Positions 1-60,046 of a stretch of DNA of 64,000 bases are shown here, in pieces. The position numbers were made by a program, and so were the translations under genes. The stretch comes from Plicaturopsis crispa FD-325 SS-3 (lineage: Eukaryota; Basidiomycota; Agaricomycetes; Amylocorticiales; Amylocorticiaceae). The stretch is taken from positions 641,189 through 705,188 of the forward strand of contig KN832567.1 of assembly GCA_000827205.1 (NCBI GenBank), given 5' to 3'. Position 1 is the stretch's first letter; the number at the start of each line of letters is the position of its first letter. The notes beneath the pieces were generated by a model. That model had not been told where the DNA came from. It saw only the letters and a program-made list of their open reading frames with translations, and did not search any database.

Positions 1-361
1 CCTCACCGTCGACGTGGATCGTCAAGTCTTCTCCGTTGTCCGTGTTGTAGGTGAGTTGCCGTCGCGCGATACTCTCGTTGACTACAATTCAAACTGTTGT
101 CAGTCACTTCGTGTTCCTACAGAGGGGAACAACCTGCGGACATTGATTTATGTGGCGTTCTACCAAACATTGGTCGTATCTGTGAATTCGTTGAAGGTAG
201 TGGTATCCTCCTGGGTGCATGTAGCCATCACGGGGATGATATTCGCTGCGACAGTCGTCCTCTGGCATCGGTGGCACATCGTTGGTGTGCACAACTATCG
301 GTAGCAATGCTTGCTGGACATAGTCTCTGGTTGCAATATGACATGGCTCGGTGCTCGACAT
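1..361 (-). CDS. clp1-like family protein, copy 1 (5' part only, cut by window edge)
   Basis: First two exons of a gene that continues off the left edge. Exon 1 runs 361-142 from an ATG (MSSTEP...), exon 2 runs 81-7, and a GTGAGG donor occupies 6-1. The conserved blocks are DYVQQALLPIVVHTNDVPPM, MHPGGYHYLQRIHRYDQ and, across the splice, QFNESIARR...LTIHVD. The same blocks, with the same intron position and phase, occur in the copies at 2561 and 5728, so this is one tandem family. I do not firmly recognise it. The total length and spread in copy 2 would fit the agaricomycete Clp1 (clampless1) family, which acts in clamp-cell and dikaryon development, but that is a hypothesis. No signal peptide or membrane segment is visible. 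Confidence 0.8.
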
Positions 362-814
362 GATGCCAAGCTTTGGGGGAGTATGAGTTTTGAGGATATC
401 GTTTTGAGGATTGTCATGCTCGACTTTATACCTAGGCCAAACGCCGTGTACCTTCGCAGAACCTAAATACAAAGGAAAACAATACGATTGTCAGGATCAG
501 AAAACGGGGAGAACAAATAGCGAAGTGCTCAACTCGGACCGACTTGTCACTGGCAGTTTCTCGAATACAACAGACGAGCAACAGACGATGTCGAATCGCC
601 ATGACAAACAACTCCGTGTGTAGCCATATGTATCCGTGTAGATCCAAGTCGGATAATAACACTTTTTTCAAAAAGCACAATTCAGCCAGGATTCAGCGCC
701 TGCGGCAAGCCTGAGGCTTGAGCTCGAGCTCGGTGCTGCTCGAGTTTCCGGCCGAAGGTTGTATTTTCCGCGGCTGGAGTCCATTCGCAGTGAGCATGTG
801 AGCGGGAACGCTTT

Positions 815-830
815 TTTGTGGCGAGTCGCG
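815..830. promoter_or_regulatory. Shared upstream element of the clp1-like array, copy 1
   Basis: The 16-base string TTTGTGGCGAGTCGCG lies 454 bases upstream of the copy 1 start. Its core GCGAGTCGC is a palindrome around one central base. The identical string lies upstream of the other two copies. Confidence 0.6.
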
Positions 831-1050
831 ACTTCGATCGCGTCCATGGCCACCGCGTGCAAACCGCGTGAGTCTTTGGCCTTCCGCCATCTCAGTAAGA
901 CTATTCCCGCTCGAGATTTATTAGATTCTACATGCTCGAGTATATTGGGTCTACGGTCCTAGCCGCATCTAATGCTAGGCAACAAGCAACGATGTTGGGA
1001 AAGGGCGCTTGCAAACCTCGGTCGAACGAAATTCTGCGAACACAGCCTGC

Positions 1051-2561
1051 TTAAGCACTACCCGTGGCAAGTCCTTGTTCGGCCAGCGCTAAGGGAGAAT
1101 CCGTTCCATTATTGGGAGCCTGAAAATGCATAGAAGGAAAACGAAATTAACCAGCCGTACGAAAAGAGCGCCACGAAATCAATGGCAAGAAAAAACGGCG
1201 TGTACGACCTCCGGGTCGTCATCAAATAGATCTTCGTACGTGCAAGGAGCCTCATCGGTGCTGAGGTGACCTTGAAATGGGGGGCAGTAACCAACTTGTG
1301 ATGGTTTCACTCCAGGGTCGTGTCCGCAAGCAGAGTGCATCCAAAACAAGAATGTTTCGAGTATCGTTGGCCACCGTGAGGTGTAACCACGCACTTCAGA
1401 AACGCAAACGTCTGCAAAATCTACGGAAAAGACGATTAGAAGAAATTCGGAGATATAAGGATAAATAGCCTATACACACCGTCCGAAAAACATCCAAACA
1501 CCCATTCCTCATATGTTGTGAAGGCGAAGTGCTGGACCTGATGCATATAACAGAAATCGTTCACCTGGTTGACGATTAATGCCGCACAGTTAATTTGCAG
1601 ACGATGCATGGCGAAGAAGACGTTTAACTTGCCAAGGCCCAATAGTGCTGACGTTTCTGCTCCATATCTGGCTCTGTGCCCGGCCGTATGAAATCCGTGC
1701 CTTTGAACTAGGTCTAACGTAAGCCCGTGTAGGATGAAACATGACTCGTAGCACGCACTGCACGTATATTGACGAAATCACGCATATCTCTTGGCGCCAA
1801 ATACCATGGCGGAACCACGAAAACAGCCATCTTGCTATTTGTAAACGATTCTGTCTCCTGTGTACAAAGTCGTAGGTAAGCAAAGATGGCTAGCGAGGAA
1901 GACATGACAGCGTACAGTCCAATCCGCGAAAATGAAAGGGATCATGTATTGGGGTTTTAACCCCCACTCTGGATGCCGCCGAAAAGTGGCATTCGGGGCA
2001 ACCGAGGGAAACAATTGATGATAGATGGTGGTGGCTGTATTGAGAATAGTCGTGTCAGTTCTATTGCTAAGATCTCCGTCTGATCTGAGTTGCTGAAGTC
2101 TGAGGAGAGCCTCTTCGACGTTGTCCGGCAAGCCTGCTGGTATCTCCTCGACGATGCCTACAGACACGATATAAGATGATAGCCCCACCCGAATCGTGCA
2201 CGGCTGAGCTTACCATCGACATGAATAGTCAAACTTCCTGCGCCTTTTTGGTTGCGAACAAGCTGTGTTTGTGCGATGCTCTCGTTAACTATCCGGAAGT
2301 CGTCAGAAATTGCTTAGGAAGCTGTTATACTGACTGACATTGAGTAACTGCTCGCTCTATTAAGAATTGATCGTATCGGTGAATCCGACGCAGGTAATGA
2401 AAGCCTCCCGGATGAAGATACCCGTCGGGAGGATGGCATTCACTGCGGCAGTCGACATGCGGTGGCATCGATGGGACCTCTTTGGTGTGCACAACTATTG
2501 GCAGTAGGGCTTCCGGGACATAGTCCTTAGTCGCCACAAAATGCGGCGTAGATCTCGACAT
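1051..2561 (-). CDS. clp1-like family protein, copy 2 (347 aa)
   Basis: Eight exons: 2561-2339, 2288-2214, 2157-1916, 1857-1759, 1671-1633, 1564-1480, 1420-1209, 1119-1051, summing to 348 codons. The start is the ATG at 2561, in context CACCATGTC, and it aligns with copy 1. Conserved blocks in order are VPEALLPIVVHTKEVPSM, YLHPGGFHYLRRIHRYDQ, SLTIHVDGIVEEIP, TIYHQLFPSV, a MAVFVVPPWYLAPRDMRDF block, HFAFTTYEEWVF and ETFLFWMHSACG. The intron after 1633 appears to use a GC donor (GCAAGT). The protein ends about 22 residues after the APNN block, whereas copy 3 runs on for more than 230 residues. No known catalytic motif is visible. Function unknown; clampless1-like is the family to test first, given a size close to 350-370 residues. 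Confidence 0.75.
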
Positions 2562-2959
2562 GGTGGGTATCAAAGTCGCAGGGGAAACGGGTGATAGCAG
2601 TGGTATGCGAAGTGTGACGCCGGAGCCTGATGTTCGACTTTATATAGGTCCGAAGACGCCGTGTATGAGCAGGAACTACAAAAGCAACATAGCACAATTG
2701 TCAGAGAAGAACACTGGAAGAACAAGTACTAACTTAACCTGGACCGCCTTGTCAGATTTTCGGGATGCAACAGGTGATGTGCGTTGTTGACTCGCCGCAA
2801 CAAACGACACCATATGTGTCCATATGTAACCATATGTATCCGTGTGGATCTAGAATAATGGCGCGTTAGGATGTCTTGATTTGTGTCGAGAGCTCGTTCT
2901 TGTTTTTCCAAGGTATCGAATTCCATTAATTTGCAGCATCTTGCCCGTGCAAAAGAAAT

Positions 2960-2975
2960 TTTGTGGCGAGTCGCG
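2960..2975. promoter_or_regulatory. Shared upstream element of the clp1-like array, copy 2
   Basis: Identical 16-mer with the GCGAGTCGC core, 399 bases upstream of the copy 2 ATG. Here and in copy 3 the match extends leftward over TTGCCCGTGCAA. Three CCATATG repeats occur closer to the gene at 2810, 2820 and 2830; one CCATATG occurs in the copy 1 promoter at 624. Confidence 0.6.
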
Positions 2976-3447
2976 TCAGGTAGCGCGTCTCGAACGTGTT
3001 CGTCAAGCAGCCGTTGAATCTTGATTACAGCAATTGCATCAGGTCCCCGTTTCCTCAGCTTGCAGTAGCTGCCCGTGTCGCTGGGAGACCGCCGTGTCGT
3101 TCAGTATACGAGTGCATAGACGGCAACAATCAGTCGCCGTTTGTTTATGAAGGTCAACTCGGTAGGCGCGGCCTCCGGGCCGCCGGGGGCCGAGTCGTTT
3201 TCTAACTTTCGCCGGGAGAGTAACTCGTCGTGGTAGGGCACCACTGGTACTATCGTACGGTTCGCCGTGTTGTACTAATAGTAATATATTAGTAGATTAT
3301 AAGGAAGTATAGTAGGTAGATAAGCACGATCGGGCAGCCCTCAACGCCGGCGTACTAGTACGCTACTTATGAATTGTCTCAAACTATACTGAACTTACAA
3401 GCATCAGTCAAACGGATCCTGCTGGGGCGTCGCTAGCCGCAGCGTGC
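2976..3447. other. Intergenic, no gene seen
   Basis: Between the copy 2 promoter element and the copy 3 stop. It holds a GC-rich patch near 3167-3192 and an AT-rich patch near 3270-3325 (repeated TAGTA/ATTAG). No supported ORF or RNA. Confidence 0.5.
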
Positions 3448-5728
3448 TTAAACGCTGCCCGTAGCAGAATAGTCGCCTTGATGGTCGTTTCCTGTCGGTG
3501 ACCCCGAAGCCCCAGACCAGCGTGGCATCTCGTTGTAATCCAGTCCGGTGAGAGTGTTTTGATGTGGCCCACCTGGAGAAAAGTTGAGGCCACCCAATGG
3601 AACGCAGTCTTCCTGTGAGACCAAGATACCGGGGGAGTAGCATGTCGAGTAGTTTTGAGACTCGGCATAGCCTGTCCCATGCTGGCCCTGCTGATCAAGG
3701 GCACCCGCGTCGAATTGTTCGTCCCAGCTGGTAGTAGGAGGGGGCGCACTCGCGGGAGCTTGGCCATGGAGCTGATGCGACGGCGCCGCGTCGAAGCTGG
3801 GATGCAGAGGCATCTGGGCAAGAGCTCCTGTGAGCTCACTGGAGCTAGCATTATGCGCATTGAATCCTGTTCCGCTAGAAGATGCGTGTTCAGAATTTTC
3901 GAAGAGGGAGTTGAACCAGCGAGAGAAGTCGCCACTTGTATAGTCGTCTTGACCTATGGAAGATGCTGAAAAGTCGGAAAGGTAAGCAGGCTCAGGCCTC
4001 CCGCTCGTTAGCTCCAGTCCTAAAGCATGCCTGTATCCGCCATATCGATCGAATGTCGGTAGAGCGCTCGCATGTCTTGACGGTCCCTGGGAGATACCTG
4101 GTATATGTAGAGCCTGCACTCCATGCCCTTCCATAGGTGGCGGGGATGCCACGTTGGCGGTTGTAAATTCTTGATCGGCCAACATTGTAAAGGAACAATC
4201 CGTGGCATTGTTGGGCGCCTGAAAAATACACAAGAAAAACAAAATCAACTAGCCGTACGAAAGGAGGGCGTTTCGAATCAATAACAAGAAAAAATTGCAT
4301 GAATAGCCTTCGGATCCCCGACAAAGAGATCTTGGTATGTGCAGGGAGCCTCGTCGGTGGAAATCTGGCCGAAGAAGGGAGGGCATTGACCAACCTGTGA
4401 TGGTTTTAATCCTGGACCGCCTCCACAAGCAGAATGCATCCAGAATAAGAACGTCTCGAGGATGGTCGGATACCGCGCCGTGCGTCCACGTACTTCGGAA
4501 ATGGTAACATCAACAAAATCTTGGGGCACCGCAGCCCATTAGAATAGAGTCATAAATACGAGGGATTCGACATACCATCCGAGAAACTCCCAAACGCCCA
4601 TTCCTCATATGTTGTGAATGCGAAATGGTGAACCTCATACATATAACAAACATCGTTCACCTAACCACCCAGAACCGCGGCGTCATCAATATGCCGAAGA
4701 TTTATCAAATAGACAGATGACTGCACTCGCCATGGCCCAGTAGTGCTGTCTCTTCTGTTCTATATCTGGCGGTTTACCTGGCTGAATGAGATCGGAGGGT
4801 GTAAACTAGTGTGCTGTCAGTCTACGCGTGAGTATACAAACGACGCGTGCCACGTACTGTGCGCGTATAGACGAAGTCTCGCATATCCCGTGGTGCCATA
4901 TACCAGGGCGGAACCACGAACACCGCCATTTTCGCATTCGTGCAAGAAGTCGTATTCTAGGAACAAAAAGTCAGCCAAGATAGGTAACCCAGGTTCTCAA
5001 CACAGCATATAGAATGACGCACAGTCCAGTCCGCAAAGACATAAGGAGTGAGGTATTGGTACTGTTTCCCCCACTCTATATGGCGTCGAAAACAGCTTGT
5101 TGGAGAGACGGAAGGGAACAGCTGGTGGTAGATAGTAGCGGCTGTTTTTAAAACAGTCGCGTCAGTCCGGCGGGCCAAATCATCATCGATCCTGAGGTTT
5201 CGCAATTCGAGGAGAGACTGCTCGACATGGGTTGGCAAGCCTGGGGGTATTTCCTCGACAACGCCTAAAGAGAAACACGAAAGCATCGTTATCCGGCAGG
5301 CCATCGTGACCGTAGCATCAGCATACCATCAACATGGATCGTCAAGTTTTCTGTGCCACCGTTGCGAGAAGTAGCCAGCAGTTTGTCTGCAATGGTGTCA
5401 TTGACTGTGTCAAAATGAAATGAGAACGAATTTTAGTGGCCGAAGAGGTCTTTCACTGACATTCAGTAATCAATTGCTCGACCCAGCATTGATCGTATCT
5501 GCGTATTTTGCGGAGGTAGTGGAACCCTCCCGGGTGAAGATAACCGTTATCTGGATGCCACTCGCTGCGACAGTCGTAAGGTGGCATCGGTGGCACATCG
5601 GCGGTGTGGATAACTATTGGCAGCAGAGCATTTGGGACATAGTCCTTGGCCACAACAAAGCGCGATTCAGGCGCTGGCATTTGAGATAGGCAAGCTTGTA
5701 GAGGAAACGGGTGAAATGGAGATGACAT
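3448..5728 (-). CDS. clp1-like family protein, copy 3, with long C-terminal tail (601 aa)
   Basis: Eight exons: 5728-5461, 5404-5327, 5264-5023, 4956-4858, 4781-4731, 4660-4576, 4519-4308, 4218-3448, summing to 602 codons. The intron layout matches copy 2 one for one. It shares the HPGGFHYLRKIRRYDQ, TIYHQLFPSV, MAVFVVPPWYMAPRDMRDF, FAFTTYEEWAF and ETFLFWMHSACG blocks. The intron after 4731 appears to use a GC donor (GCGAGT); the donor of the last intron is uncertain because the expected site reads AAG/GCTATT. The last exon encodes 257 residues and is rich in Ser, Gly, Pro, His and Asp, without repeats or membrane segments. Copy 2 stops at the matching place after its APNN block, so the tail is either gained here or lost there. 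The tail composition would fit a disordered activation-type region, which is inference only. Confidence 0.7.
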
Positions 5729-6068
5729 CGTCGATCTCTGTTGGACTTTAAGTCCGCAGCATCGACCCCGTGTTTCTATGGGCCCTGGAGAGCGAAGCCG
5801 CGGTTGTCAGAATCAGAACAAGAAAGAACAAATAAGAGCGAGTATTCTCAACTCGGACCGCCTTGTAGTCCTTGGAAAACAATAGATGATGCGTGATGAA
5901 TCGCCGCCACAATCGAACTTATGTGTCCATGTGGGTCCGTGTAGGTCTGTGATAAGAACGCATTAGCTAGGGAGCCTTCATTTTGTACGCTGAGCCGCTC
6001 CAGCGGTTGATAGAGGTGTTATTTTTTTTGCGACATCGACGAAGCCAAGTTGCCCGTGCAAGAGAAAG

Positions 6069-6084
6069 TTTGTGGCGAGTCGCG
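6069..6084. promoter_or_regulatory. Shared upstream element of the clp1-like array, copy 3
   Basis: Identical 16-mer with the GCGAGTCGC core, 341 bases upstream of the copy 3 ATG, preceded by the same TTGCCCGTGCAA block as in copy 2. Conservation in three otherwise diverged promoters suggests a protein-binding site. Confidence 0.6.
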
Positions 6085-6299: not shown

Positions 6300-8198
6300 C
6301 TATTGAAGAACACATCCTTTGCCCATGTCCGGGGTAAACCCCATCTCCAGTAGCTCCTCTTCAGCTGCCTCGCGCTCGTTCGCCTTCCGTTTTGCGGCCG
6401 CTTCATTGGGGAACCAATCCTGCATGAAGTTGACCAACGCCTTGTCGACATTCGCTGCGAGGGACGATGAGTCAGAAGGCTGGCGACGGGGAGAAAATGG
6501 GGTACAAGAACTCACATCGATCGGCGGAAAGTACGGTTGGAGCACGACACATGGGACAGCAATCCTGGCCTCTCTTCTGCATCTTGACCAAGCACCTACG
6601 AGTGCACGAATTCGGTCAGCGATATGATCCTTCGTGGCAACAGACAATGGCTGCACAAAGGCGACGCGCGAAGAAATGCTAAGTTGGACTCACCTGACGC
6701 AGAACAAGTGCCCGCAGAACAATCGCACAGGTGTATACGCTAGGCTCGTGCATATGAGGCATGCGTAATCATCGATATGCGGAACCAAGGGCAAAAGCGT
6801 TTCACCGATAGCTTGGACGAGGATACGGGGGAACGATAGGCTGATCTGCGGGAGGAGCGCTGAATTCGGGAGCAGGGCGTTCGAAGTCGTATTAGGTATT
6901 AGACCATCATTAGGTTGATGGGTCGATGACATGGTAAAACCTTTGGATGAAAGGGAAGCCAGGTCGAGGAGTTGGGGTGAAGAGGCGGTCGGAAAATGGA
7001 TCGGTGCAGGCGATGCACCCGGGGGAAGGGGCAACGCAGTGCGCTTTGTGTGCTTTTTGAGGATTTTACGAGTCGCTTCTACATTAGCATATTGAAACTG
7101 CAAAACATCAGCCATTAGTAAACATACTGCACAATTCATTGTTAGGCATATAAGCATACCTTCTTTAGATTGAGCACGAAAACATTAAGTTCGACAAAGG
7201 TCTTCAAAGCGGATTTACTCTCCGCGAGATGGAGTTTCGTCGGGCGAAAGCCAAAATCTAACCAAGGCTTCCTGGAACCTGCCCCGCTTTCTCGCACTCC
7301 GATGCGGTCTAGAAAGCCGTGCAGCCTCTGTTCTGAATCCTCAACGGTGCGTTCGCCCCTGCTGGCCTCGGCTACGCTCTCGAATATCTCCGCTTCAAGA
7401 TAAATGCGAAATATCTCGCGCCACGCCGCCAGGTCGGATTTTGCATGAAGCGTGAACGCTGCAGTAGCGTGAGGGGTGGCAGAAGCTGGACGCGCCGAGA
7501 AGGAGATGGCACGTGCAAGTGAGGAGAGAGAGACGATGAAGTCGGCATGAAGCTTGAGCAGATGGAGAGAAAGAGATTGAAGGGCCGTAGATAGGAGGTG
7601 AAAGAAGGCCGTGTCGGAAACGAGAGGAACAACGACTTCTTGCGGACTGGAACTGCGGGGCACGATAAGCCATGTAGAAACAATCACTAAGTATACACGT
7701 ACTCTGGAGGTAGCGAATCGCCGCCCGGGTTTGCATGCGTTTGGAGTATCCAGCGGAGGGATGTCGGGTCCGGGGTATCGAGTGGCGGTTCTTTGTCCGG
7801 GGTATTGGTGATCAGAAATCGTAGTCGCGGTTCGATGTGGTCGACGTCCCCACTGAGCTCGTAAACGAGCCGCGGGTGATGCTCTGCGGTCGCCGTCTCT
7901 GCGAGTTCTACCTTCAGGAGGGCGTCCGTGTCGACCGCCTTCCCCTTCCCTTTAATGTCTCCCGGGACAGGGACCGACCCATTCTCGAGGAGCTCCTGCA
8001 AGACCTCCGGGCTCAGACCTAAAGACTCGAGCTCATTAACGACCTTGTTTATCAACTTCTTCAGCTATGACCCTAGATTAGCGCTTCACCTCCACATAAT
8101 AGGTGGTGACGACATACCTGCCGATACTGTATAGCATTGTCCCTTAGCTCCGGTGGAAGAGTTAGAAGGAGAGACGCATAGGTCTTCGAGAAGTGCAT
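6300..8198 (-). CDS. SPX-RING E3 ubiquitin ligase (526 aa)
   Basis: Six exons: 8198-8118, 8064-7697, 7652-7160, 7097-6694, 6595-6516, 6454-6300, summing to 527 codons. The N-terminus MHFSKTYASLLLTLPPEL and the LKKLINKV segment are the start of an SPX domain, which closes with the basic ILKKHTKRT motif around residue 330. SPX domains sense inositol pyrophosphates and so report phosphate status. The C-terminal third carries a C3HC4 RING: CLIC, then CGHLFCVRC, then CPMC, completed across two splice sites. This order is the family of S. pombe Pqr1 and plant NLA, ubiquitin ligases that restrict phosphate uptake. The protein ends in an acidic helix and GKGCVLQ. A role in phosphate homeostasis follows from the family; the substrate cannot be read here. 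Confidence 0.9.
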
Positions 8199-8658
8199 TT
8201 ATTTGTGGAGTTGAAGTCTTTGTCGCTAGGATTTGGCTGAGCACATAGTAATGTGTGCTGCGCGGTTACCGGTAGCACAGTGGGCGGGCGGTTAACTTCA
8301 AAAGACCGTATGTATGTTCCAGGGTTTCGTTTAGCGGGGTCCAAGATAAGAATGTTTACAGAGGAATAAAAAGCAATTGTAGGGTAAACGTGCTCGTCGT
8401 TCGAGGTTGTTGAACGTTGAACGTTCGTCGTTGCGGTACCGTTGCGGCGGCGGCAAGGCCGACGGCGGGGTCCAGATATGGAAATTCTCGTCGGCGCTCC
8501 TTTCGCGCAATGCCGCAGCGCGGTGTGTGGCACGACGTCGAGACTCGCGACTCGAGGCTACGAGAAAAGAAATTATGGCATAGGCATCTAGCATTATCGC
8601 TACGCACCGCAGTGGAAGAAGAGGCTACATACATGATTACTGTACATTCCCAAATATC
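8199..8658. other. Intergenic: SPX-RING promoter and 3' side of GNAT-Mss4 gene
   Basis: 460 bases between two genes on the same strand. A GC-rich stretch lies at 8425-8475. No TATA box, repeat or RNA gene was recognised. Confidence 0.5.
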
Positions 8659-9843
8659 TCAGTCTACACGGTAGCCGACACGTGTACACGCCACCCAAAA
8701 TTCCTTTCCACCTTGCTGCGCCCATCCCAGCGGACCGAGATCGCATTCCGCGCATGCAAGCAGCTGCACCCCTGGCCCTGTCCCATCTGACTGGGGTATA
8801 CGCTTTGAAAATCCGATGTTTTCAAATGCCATGACAGTGGGGCCAGTACGCCACCAGTGGGTATGCTCGGGAGGCGGAGGCAATGGAGCCAGGAGCGGTG
8901 ACGTTGTTATCGACGGGGGGTCAATCTGCGACAACTGAGTCAACGCGGTTCGGAGAAAAATGCGGGGGACTTCACGGACCGCAAAGCTTACGCCCTCTAC
9001 ATGTTTTGCTGCACCTGCCTTCAAGATGATGCTTCCGCAGCCATCTCGCGGGCAAAGAATATCGAACTTGTTCTCTGAAGATGGCGTCGTAACCTCGGCG
9101 ATGCCACCTTGAAAGTCAGTTAGCAATTTCGCTCCGGGCCGTGGTCGAGACGGGCGTTGGAGGGCCTCCCAGACTCCCGGAGGTATCTCTTGCTGCTGCG
9201 CCTGCTGTGGCCGTAGATCCCGATGCATCTCAAACCATGGTCTGTCTCCATGTACGACCGCGCTTTTCCCACCCCATTGGAATCCAGCACGTTCGTACAA
9301 TCCACGGAGCTCCTCATGCGTTATGAGCAGTACGCGCTCATACTGCGTTTCATCGAGGCGAGCGACGTACTCCTGGAGGAGTCGGAGAGCGATTCCTGTG
9401 CGACGATATGTAGGTGCGACACAGATAGAATGTATGCAGACGTTTGGTGCTCCCGGGACGTGATGAGACATGGACGCCGCGGTGAGAGATGCGTCGGGCG
9501 ACAGCGTCGCGCAGACGTAGCCTACAAGTGTACGTGGAGAGCTGTCTGTTGGCAAGTAGGCGCCAAGGAAAAGGTCACCGGCTTCTTTTTGTCGGTATCT
9601 GGCGCGATCGGGGTGTGAGGTCGAGAACAGGACGGCGGGGAACGAGCGCACCGAAATGCATCGAGTGACGCGGCTTCTGACGGTGGAAATCCTGCAGGTT
9701 TGAACACAATAGAGGGTTAGGGTGTATGCTGATAACAGGCTGTGTAGCATACCGTCTGTCTCGATTTTGTGCGCCGCATCGATGTCGGTGCTAGAGACCA
9801 AATCGAAAGATACCGTCTCCGCCGCCGCTTTTGCAATTGGCAT
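8659..9843 (-). CDS. GNAT acetyltransferase fused to an Mss4-like zinc domain (356 aa)
   Basis: Three exons: 9843-9753, 9691-9652, 9598-8659, summing to 357 codons; the second intron is only 53 bases. The N-terminal half is a GNAT fold: DGFPPSEAASLDAFRYRQ (arylalkylamine-type acetyltransferase start), FLGAYLPT, then the acetyl-CoA loop VAPTYRRTGIALRLLQ and the ERAGF end strand. The C-terminal half has paired zinc ligands CPRDGCGS and CAECDLGPLGW, the signature of Mss4/Dss4 (RABIF), a chaperone-like factor for exocytic Rab GTPases, and ends WVACTRVGYRV. The GNAT substrate cannot be told from sequence; polyamine, arylalkylamine or protein N-termini are possible. The fusion suggests linked action in the secretory route, which is inference. 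Confidence 0.85.
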   Translation of the reverse strand: MPIAKAAAETVSFDLVSSTDIDAAHKIETDGMLHSLLSAYTLTLYCVQTCRISTVRSRVTRCISVRSFPAVLFSTSHPDRARYRQKEAGDLFLGAYLPTDSSPRTLVGYVCATLSPDASLTAASMSHHVPGAPNVCIHSICVAPTYRRTGIALRLLQEYVARLDETQYERVLLITHEELRGLYERAGFQWGGKSAVVHGDRPWFEMHRDLRPQQAQQQEIPPGVWEALQRPSRPRPGAKLLTDFQGGIAEVTTPSSENKFDILCPRDGCGSIILKAGAAKHVEGVSFAVREVPRIFLRTALTQLSQIDPPSITTSPLLAPLPPPPEHTHWWRTGPTVMAFENIGFSKRIPQSDGTGPGVQLLACAECDLGPLGWAQQGGKEFWVACTRVGYRVD

Positions 9844-10105
9844 GGCGAACCCAATCCGTCTAAACTGTCGTTGTCGACGTGGACTACAATGAAGATGACA
9901 AGGAAGACCAATTCAGTACAAAAGCTCAAACGCGAGCGTTGGAAAGTATTGGGTCACTGCGCAAACGGACTTGAAGGCATTACTCCAGGATAGGGGCTAT
10001 TTATCTAATACTGTATACAGCGACGACGCACTGCAACTCTTAGTCTCCTTTGCTGACCTAATAGAGCATGATAGTCGATGCTCTATATAAGGTCTGCCCC
10101 AAGTT
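9844..10105. other. Intergenic, promoter of GNAT-Mss4
   Basis: Upstream region of the GNAT-Mss4 gene up to the transposon. No distinct element recognised. Confidence 0.4.
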
Positions 10106-19254: not shown

Positions 19255-20174
19255 NNNNNNNNNNNNNNNNNNNNNNNNNNNNNNNNNNNNNNNNNNNNNN
19301 NNNNNNNNNNNNNNNNNNNNNNNNNNNNNNNNNNNNNNNNNNNNNNNNNNNNNNNNNNNNNNNNNNNNNNNNNNNNNNNNNNNNNNNNNNNNNNNNNNNN
19401 NNNNNNNNNNNNNNNNNNNNNNNNNNNNNNNNNNNNNNNNNNNNNNNNNNNNNNNNNNNNNNNNNNNNNNNNNNNNNNNNNNNNNNNNNNNNNNNNNNNN
19501 NNNNNNNNNNNNNNNNNNNNNNNNNNNNNNNNNNNNNNNNNNNNNNNNNNNNNNNNNNNNNNNNNNNNNNNNNNNNNNNNNNNNNNNNNNNNNNNNNNNN
19601 NNNNNNNNNNNNNNNNNNNNNNNNNNNNNNNNNNNNNNNNNNNNNNNNNNNNNNNNNNNNNNNNNNNNNNNNNNNNNNNNNNNNNNNNNNNNNNNNNNNN
19701 NNNNNNNNNNNNNNNNNNNNNNNNNNNNNNNNNNNNNNNNNNNNNNNNNNNNNNNNNNNNNNNNNNNNNNNNNNNNNNNNNNNNNNNNNNNNNNNNNNNN
19801 NNNNNNNNNNNNNNNNNNNNNNNNNNNNNNNNNNNNNNNNNNNNNNNNNNNNNNNNNNNNNNNNNNNNNNNNNNNNNNNNNNNNNNNNNNNNNNNNNNNN
19901 NNNNNNNNNNNNNNNNNNNNNNNNNNNNNNNNNNNNNNNNNNNNNNNNNNNNNNNNNNNNNNNNNNNNNNNNNNNNNNNNNNNNNNNNNNNNNNNNNNNN
20001 NNNNNNNNNNNNNNNNNNNNNNNNNNNNNNNNNNNNNNNNNNNNNNNNNNNNNNNNNNNNNNNNNNNNNNNNNNNNNNNNNNNNNNNNNNNNNNNNNNNN
20101 NNNNNNNNNNNNNNNNNNNNNNNNNNNNNNNNNNNNNNNNNNNNNNNNNNNNNNNNNNNNNNNNNNNNNNNNNN
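19255..20174. other. Assembly gap (920 Ns)
   Basis: Unbroken run of N. No coding content can be inferred; any reading frame across it is artificial. Confidence 1.
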
Positions 20175-58123: not shown

Positions 58124-60046
58124 CTAATCGCTCTCAGTGCTATACCCATCGGATTCGGTATCCGCTTCGCCACTGTCGCGCCGCCCGGGCTCAATGATTA
58201 GCTCGACGACAAGCTGGGCACCACCATCCAAGCCCTCAACGCTCGCCAGCGTCTTGCCCGCCTCCCACAAGATTTCCCGCCTCGGATATGCAAGCACCAG
58301 CTTGAACCCCCACCAGCCCTCCGCGTGCCCCTCGTGCTGTCGTATTTGCCGCTCGAGCGCCGCCTCGCCGATCGCCGACCCTTGCGGGGGTGCCTCGGGA
58401 TCGTCGTCCGGGGACAAGTGCTCCGGTACGAGCTGCGCGTCGACAAACGCGTACAGCCCCGTGAGCGTGGCAGTCGGGGAGAAATACCGGATGCACCGTG
58501 CGTTCCCGGGAAGCTTGATGGCCAGGCGAAGGTCCTCCTTCGTGCCAACTTCGGGGGGAGCAGGGAGGGCGCGCCGCGACCACCTTCGCCAGTCCATCCG
58601 CACGACCGCGCGCTTCCTCGCCTCCTCCTCCAGCCGCCGCGCGCGCTCTGCCTCTTCGCGCTCCTCCGCCTCTCTTTGCTGCCGCTCCGCCGCGAGCCGG
58701 CGCTCCTCCGCCATCTTTGCCTCAATGCGCTCCTTGTCGCGCCGCGCGGAGTCCTTGAACGCGCGGTCCTGCTCCTCGCGCAGGAGCCGGTCGCGCTCGC
58801 GCTCGCGTGCGGACGCCTGGATGCGGTCGAGGAACGGCTTGACGCGGGGAAGGAGTTGCCGCTCGAGGTGGTCCGTCAGCGTGTGGGCGGAGGTGGGCGC
58901 GGTGTCGGGCACGCAGCGGCCCTGGTGGCGCGAGAGGATCGTCAGCACGGGAGGCGCGGCCGTGCGCGAAGTGGTTGAGGACGGGCTGCGGCGCGGCTGT
59001 AGGGCTAGGAAGGCGACGAAGGGGTATGTCGTGACTTGCAGTTTCTGGGCCGCTGTTTGTGATAGTGGGTCAATGTCAGAAAGCAATGAAGAGACAATGT
59101 CGTACCACTCCAGGCATCCTGGTCGCGAACATCCCCGCCCCAGACCACGATATCATTCTCTTGTAGCGTATTGACGAACCTAGGGTTCGTGAGGGTAGTT
59201 CTGCATCGTCACGTCAGCACAGTTCGCGTCGGAAAAGATGCTGCGCGTGCATACCGTTTGAACTCGGGCACATCGTCATGCTCTTCACTGACGAGTATCA
59301 CGCAAGCTATCCTAGCGTCTCGTTGACAAGTTCGCAGCACGTCCTCGTAGCTGCCTATAGTGAAGTCGGGAAGCGGAGTCTTCCCCTCGTCGAAACCGTT
59401 TGCCCCGGACCGCGAGGTCAGCGTAGAGGGCCCAGCATCCGCGCCCGACGCCGCAACGGCGCGTGAGGCAGCAGCGCGTGCGCGAGACACGCAGACACCG
59501 CCTGTTTCCTCCTCCAAGGCGCGCACCCACCGGTCTGCTGCGCTGTGCGGGTCTGACGGTCCTGAGCGCAGCGGGCGGTAGAAGTTGAGGCTCGAAAATC
59601 GCAGCTGTGGAATCGGGATGCGGAGGACACCAAAGAAGAACCGGAATATGCTGGATAGCAGGTGCAGTGGGTACGCGAAAAGGGACCAGATAGACCTGGG
59701 ATTCGAGGGGAAGAGCCGGCGCGAGGGGCGCGGCTTGAGGAGAAGTAAGGCGACAAGTCGTGCGGTGACACTGTAGGACTCACACCACGGCCAACGTGCT
59801 CGCCCTGTCCAGAGTCATCTATCTCCATTGCCTCTCTTCTGGGCGCCGGTGTAGGCTCAAAAATGATGTCTGCAGCGCGCTTTGGAATTGTTAGCGACTT
59901 GAGTATCAGGTGGCGCATGTGGTTCGCACCTGGACATCCCAACCGACGCTGGACAAGACGCCAATTGCAGCCTGGTCGTCTCCGCCGTCGGTAAGCACCT
60001 GGAGCTGTGCTAGTGCGCGCTGTTGCTCTGCGCTGAGATTCTCCAT
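58124..60046 (-). CDS. UBX-domain protein, Ubx2/UBXD8 (FAF2) type
   Basis: Starts MENLSAEQQRALAQLQVLTD at 60046, a UBA-like segment ending GWDVQ. A hydrophobic hairpin (IWSLFAYPLHLLSSIFRFFF, then GVLRIPIPQLRF) follows, then a UAS thioredoxin-like domain (NDIVVWGGDVRDQDAW, LQVTTYPFVAFLALQP), a long charged coiled coil of Arg/Glu repeats (58600-58830) and a C-terminal UBX domain (LRLAIKLPGNARCIRYFSPT, GFKLVLAYPRREIL). This order is that of UBXD8/Ubx2, which recruits Cdc48/p97 to the ER or lipid droplets for protein degradation. The stretch 58124-59086 has very high GC and is open in other frames, which are not genes. Exon ends between 59090 and 59930 were not all resolved. Confidence 0.88.

Follow-up and report, generated by a model that had tools for sequence, protein, structure and literature searches.

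Three or more paralogous fungal genes in an old tandem array with a shared promoter word

Three related genes lie side by side within about the first 6 kb of the 64-kb window, that is, the whole stretch of DNA analysed here, and they raise the question of what kind of family they represent and what holds them together. The copies, here called A, B and C, are paralogous and are arranged head to tail on the minus strand. They form an old tandem array, with three or more members, of a fungal and probably basidiomycete family without a recognised domain, and we consider it rather probable that this family is co-regulated and regulator-like.

The gene models were obtained by reading the splice sites of all three copies from the sequence and then splicing the exons by script. 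Copy A has a coding span of 4278..5680, with seven exons at 5680-5461, 5404-5327, 5264-5023, 4956-4858, 4805-4731, 4660-4576 and 4519-4278 (stop included), and copy B occupies 1179..2561, likewise with seven exons, at 2561-2339, 2288-2214, 2157-1916, 1857-1759, 1707-1633, 1564-1480 and 1420-1179 (stop included). The spliced product is 346 amino acids long in both cases, which corrects the length of 347 residues given in the initial annotation. The window begins inside copy C, and this copy is therefore a fragment (1..361), consisting of an exon at 361-142, an intron at 141-82 and a further exon that starts at 81 and reaches a donor, GTGAGG, where the window ends; its frame is open throughout the visible part. 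An alternative start for copy A at 5728 was rejected, as the start common to the three copies is at 5680 and a TATA-like block at 5752-5739 lies close before 5728.

Of 340 aligned residues, the A and B proteins share 232 (68%), and the visible part of C matches A at 58 of 100. A and B have their six introns, of 50-70 nt each, at the same positions and in the same phases, so that the proposal of a tandem triplet with identical introns holds in full for these two copies; for C it extends over the first exon, the first intron and the second exon as far as its donor. The protein blocks that had been described as strongly kept were recovered as well, the first being exact in B and the second in A; elsewhere the blocks differ slightly. 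A search with the three proteins against the whole window (tblastn, E up to 1; 920 bases of the window are N) found no further copies. The locus is thus confirmed as a tandem array of paralogs, with adjacent copies on the same strand that share introns and flanks (for C, within the window only), and the shared introns, the shared promoter words described below and the head-to-tail order all back the suggestion that it arose by tandem duplication of a whole gene. GC-AG introns are uncommon, and intron 5 reads as one in both A (4661-4730) and B (1565-1632), having been kept since an old duplication.

The duplications are old, a point absent from the initial annotation: synonymous sites are near saturation. 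Over 345 codons, the comparison of A and B by the Nei-Gojobori method gives a pS of 0.652, a dS of 1.53 (a rough figure with this method), a dN of 0.224 and a dN/dS of 0.147, with values of 0.08 to 0.28 across the seven exons. A dN/dS this low at a dS of about 1.5 argues that A and B have both been kept by purifying selection, and the same value over 345 codons led us to reject chance open frames as an explanation. For C, the 99 codons available have a pS of 0.75 against A and 0.77 against B, beyond the limit of correction, and a pN of 0.25 and 0.21, respectively; dS being saturated, no dN/dS is given for this copy. Global alignment of the six introns of A and B yields identities of only 42-57%, and three of these introns were equalled by one or more of 60 shuffles. 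A recent duplication, or an assembly duplicate, was rejected on the grounds that synonymous sites are near saturation and that the introns can barely be aligned.

Against this background of divergence, the promoters of the three copies share a word. When the 600 nt upstream of each start were compared, an exact 16-mer, CGCGACTCGCCACAAA, was found upstream of all three, with its 5' end at -404 in A (6069..6084), -414 in B (2960..2975) and -469 in C (815..830), each on the minus strand like the genes; the longest word common to the three promoters in 1000 dinucleotide shuffles was 9 bases. Four looser blocks, drawn as patterns from the alignment and also on the minus strand, follow the 16-mer in the same order in every copy. 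These are ACACGGAYMCAYATGG (5927..5945 in A, 2830..2848 in B and 624..642 in C), ACAAGKCGGTCCRRGTTRAG (5847..5866, 2733..2752 and 528..547), TAYTTGTTCT (5825..5834, 2719..2728 and 510..519) and a TATA-like block, which reads CTTAAAGTCCAACA in A (5739..5752), TATAAAGTCGAACA in B (2631..2644) and TATAAAGTCGAGCA in C (417..430), with TATAAAGTCGARCA as the form found in B and C. A sixth pattern is confined to B and C. Across the 64-kb window, the 16-mer and the four patterns match upstream of the three copies only, a result that gauges their rarity rather than providing an independent test, because the patterns were derived from these same copies. The only exact 8-mer beyond the 16-mer that occurs in all three promoters is CGAGTTGA, which falls in the third block in A and C and at -600 in B. 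The strength of the shared-promoter claim therefore rests on the 16-mer, since the other blocks are looser patterns and CGAGTTGA lies elsewhere in B. With synonymous sites near saturation, a word kept this well is best read as a putative working control site. The promoter of B also contains a 10-bp tandem repeat, CCATATGTAT, in 3.2 copies at 2810-2841, overlapping the second promoter block; no repeat of this kind was reported near A or C.

The 3' ends of the genes are less straightforward. Behind the stop codon, 59 columns of the A-B alignment are 66% identical, above every one of the six introns, and end in a TTTTCAG acceptor; the 55 columns that follow the conserved CAG are 69% identical (the boundary in B being off by one base). 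In A, the conserved TTTTTCAG acceptor opens onto a possible C-terminal exon of 256 codons plus a stop (3448..4218, minus strand), for which there are candidate donors only. Its counterpart in B has the same acceptor and a similar end block, and is only about 22 codons long plus a stop (1051..1119, minus strand, from the alignment, with coordinates counted from the sequence). The tail predicted for A is rich in Ser, Gly, Ala and Pro, lacks Lys and has a net charge of about -20. None of 20000 base shuffles left the frame open over 256 codons, and only 8 of 20000 were free of Lys, the shuffle mean being 6.4 Lys.

These features bear on the possibility that the exon models are wrong in detail, with either the GC-AG intron 5 or the 3' end being spliced otherwise; the main products would then finish with the tail, or the last intron would be retained in part of the transcripts and both copies would make two isoforms. 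We entertain this reading tentatively, with the balance against it. The conservation behind the stop and behind the CAG speaks for it, as does a shared donor candidate, GTTGGT (4394 in A and 1295 in B), which is in phase with the tail and whose use would place the conserved end of exon 7 inside a retained intron. However, exon 7 up to the stop has a dN/dS of 0.10 between A and B, and must therefore be translated in at least one form. A second shared candidate, GTACGG (4258 and 1160), is situated past the stop codon; its use would instead produce an intron of about 40 nt in the 3' untranslated region and leave the tail untranslated. For intron 5, inspection by eye revealed no GT donor with which A and B would both stay in frame. 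As for the tail itself as an exon of A, no canonical donor common to A and B was found just before the stop, and codon usage, which is best in the tail frame among the six frames, is only weakly coding-like, with 11.6% of random windows scoring as high or higher. The tail of A may thus be a copy-specific exon, part of an isoform common to A and B, or a separate reading frame, to judge from these sequence features.

The initial annotation had called the family undescribed-looking, and this is supported: no significant match emerged from Pfam, NCBIfam, PHROGs or the PDB. The Pfam scan covered copies A and B; the best match of A was NDUFB11 (E 0.061, with 14.4 bits where the cut-off is 27.9), and B had none. 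In the PDB, B had a single weak match (E 0.3) and the family profile had none, PHROGs gave a best E of 0.49 for one of the three members, and NCBIfam gave zero matches for all three. Scans for two short peptide patterns each, which distant relatives could escape, returned 57 and 37 pattern sites in IMG/VR viral contigs and 51 and 59 in GTDB genome contigs, none of them confirmed by tblastn. AlphaFold was run on single exons (two sequences of exon 7 and three of exon 1) and was uninformative, with a mean pLDDT of 42.7 for each. The best 19-residue hydropathy values, 1.08 for A, 0.81 for B and 0.63 for C, indicate that none of the copies has a signal-peptide-like or membrane stretch.

For the surroundings, 207 open frames of at least 90 codons were kept, and 20 of them were scanned against Pfam. 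Nine of these gave a match with an E of 0.01 or less: a GNAT-Mss4 frame, two F-box proteins, an aspartyl protease, a protein kinase, an Mtr4-like helicase, PAF67 and two pieces of a CSC1-like channel. Taken with the short introns, these matches indicate a fungal genome, probably that of a basidiomycete. Mating-type homeodomain and pheromone-receptor families were absent from the matches of the 20, and so the scanned frames hold no pointer to a mating locus near the array. The GNAT-Mss4 frame (8662-9912, minus strand) is uninterrupted and carries GNAT acetyltransferase and Mss4 domains, possibly as a fusion protein. The gene upstream of A (6300-8200) resembles, by eye, an SPX plus RING protein; the one piece scanned (7145-7951) had no Pfam match at E 0.01. 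A run of 920 N at 19255-20174 explains why GC seems low at 18-20 kb and why long frames are open on both strands in that part. Long frames are also open on both strands at 58127-59171, where the window reaches its highest GC content (62% at 58-60 kb).

Two accounts of the family's identity have to be weighed, and their probabilities overlap with each other, since a relative of Clp1 could belong to a larger family; the splicing question is separate. One account makes the array something ordinary: the copies would belong to a large group of unnamed mushroom proteins that has expanded within a lineage and often occurs as tandem copies. This is close to an even possibility in our estimation. Tandem arrays are a usual way for lineage-expanded families to grow, and the PPW, DxxDFV, TTYxxWxFGxFS and PTxxExxxFW blocks resemble, in their order and spacing, those of unnamed Agaricomycete proteins. 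Such families also seem to resemble the array in their tandem copies, in having no Pfam model and in their conserved aromatic and proline blocks. The array differs from them in that A and B are old and strongly constrained. The 64-kb window holds only three copies, although the array may continue past its left edge, and the constraint on A and B together with the shared promoter words favours a maintained function over rapid turnover.

The other account, raised as a possibility in the initial annotation, is that the family is Clp1 (clampless1), the array being a local expansion of a homeodomain-regulated gene for clamp formation. This seems rather unlikely to us, and membership in an unnamed expanded mushroom family, which draws on the resemblance just described, is somewhat more likely. 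Coprinopsis Clp1 has 365 amino acids, a length that the 346-residue products fit, and the absence of a Pfam domain fits as well: Clp1 of Coprinopsis cinerea, Ustilago maydis and Cryptococcus neoformans is not known to have a recognised domain. A basidiomycete setting is probably shared, too. The promoter of clp1, an A-regulated gene, carries the motif GATGN9ACA. This motif, however, is not common to the array copies: it has 9 matches on both strands of the 64-kb window and, among the three promoters, lies upstream of A alone, which is about what chance predicts (about 0.23 for at least one match in three 600-nt promoters at the window rate). Two further motifs are uninformative: GATGN9TGA is absent from all three promoters, and TGTGA, with 98 matches, is too common.

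Clampless1 is described as not conserved outside basidiomycetes (PMC3360767), with which the lack of confirmed relatives in the prokaryote and viral contigs does not conflict. The U. maydis protein interacts with Cib1 and alters its stability, phosphorylation and localisation (PMC6490947). On the Clp1 account, the array proteins would likewise act by binding and modifying transcription factors. Expression of clp1 or a homolog is described as rising on mating signals in Lentinula edodes (PMC7288658) and with compatible mating-type genes in Pleurotus eryngii (PMC10100773). On the other side, the published passages considered here name one clp1 gene or homolog per species, in contrast to the three tandem copies seen here, and no report of a clp1 gene array appeared among the matches listed from the open-licence literature. 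A more elaborate form of the Clp1 account would have Clp1-type mating regulators clustered since an ancient duplication and governed by one promoter code, with copies that have or lack an acidic activation tail giving graded or opposing outputs of the mating-type pathway; the presence or absence of the tail would be set by gene structure or by alternative splicing. We regard this combination as quite improbable.

Whatever its name, the array is an old, apparently co-regulated tandem family. In the reading that we favour, the same regulators would switch the copies on together through the shared promoter words. The products would be soluble intracellular proteins, and they might act as protein-binding regulators rather than as enzymes, with the copies specialising through their divergent linkers and C-terminal ends; in A, this may include a tail that is acidic and disordered, comparable to a transcription activation region.

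A strongly constrained family without a name, together with a promoter word that has outlived neutral divergence, provides a handle on a co-regulated fungal programme, and the 16-mer can be used in a genome-wide search for the partners in that programme. If the family does prove to be Clp1, then the view that a single gene acts at the step downstream of the mating-type homeodomain proteins will have to be revised.
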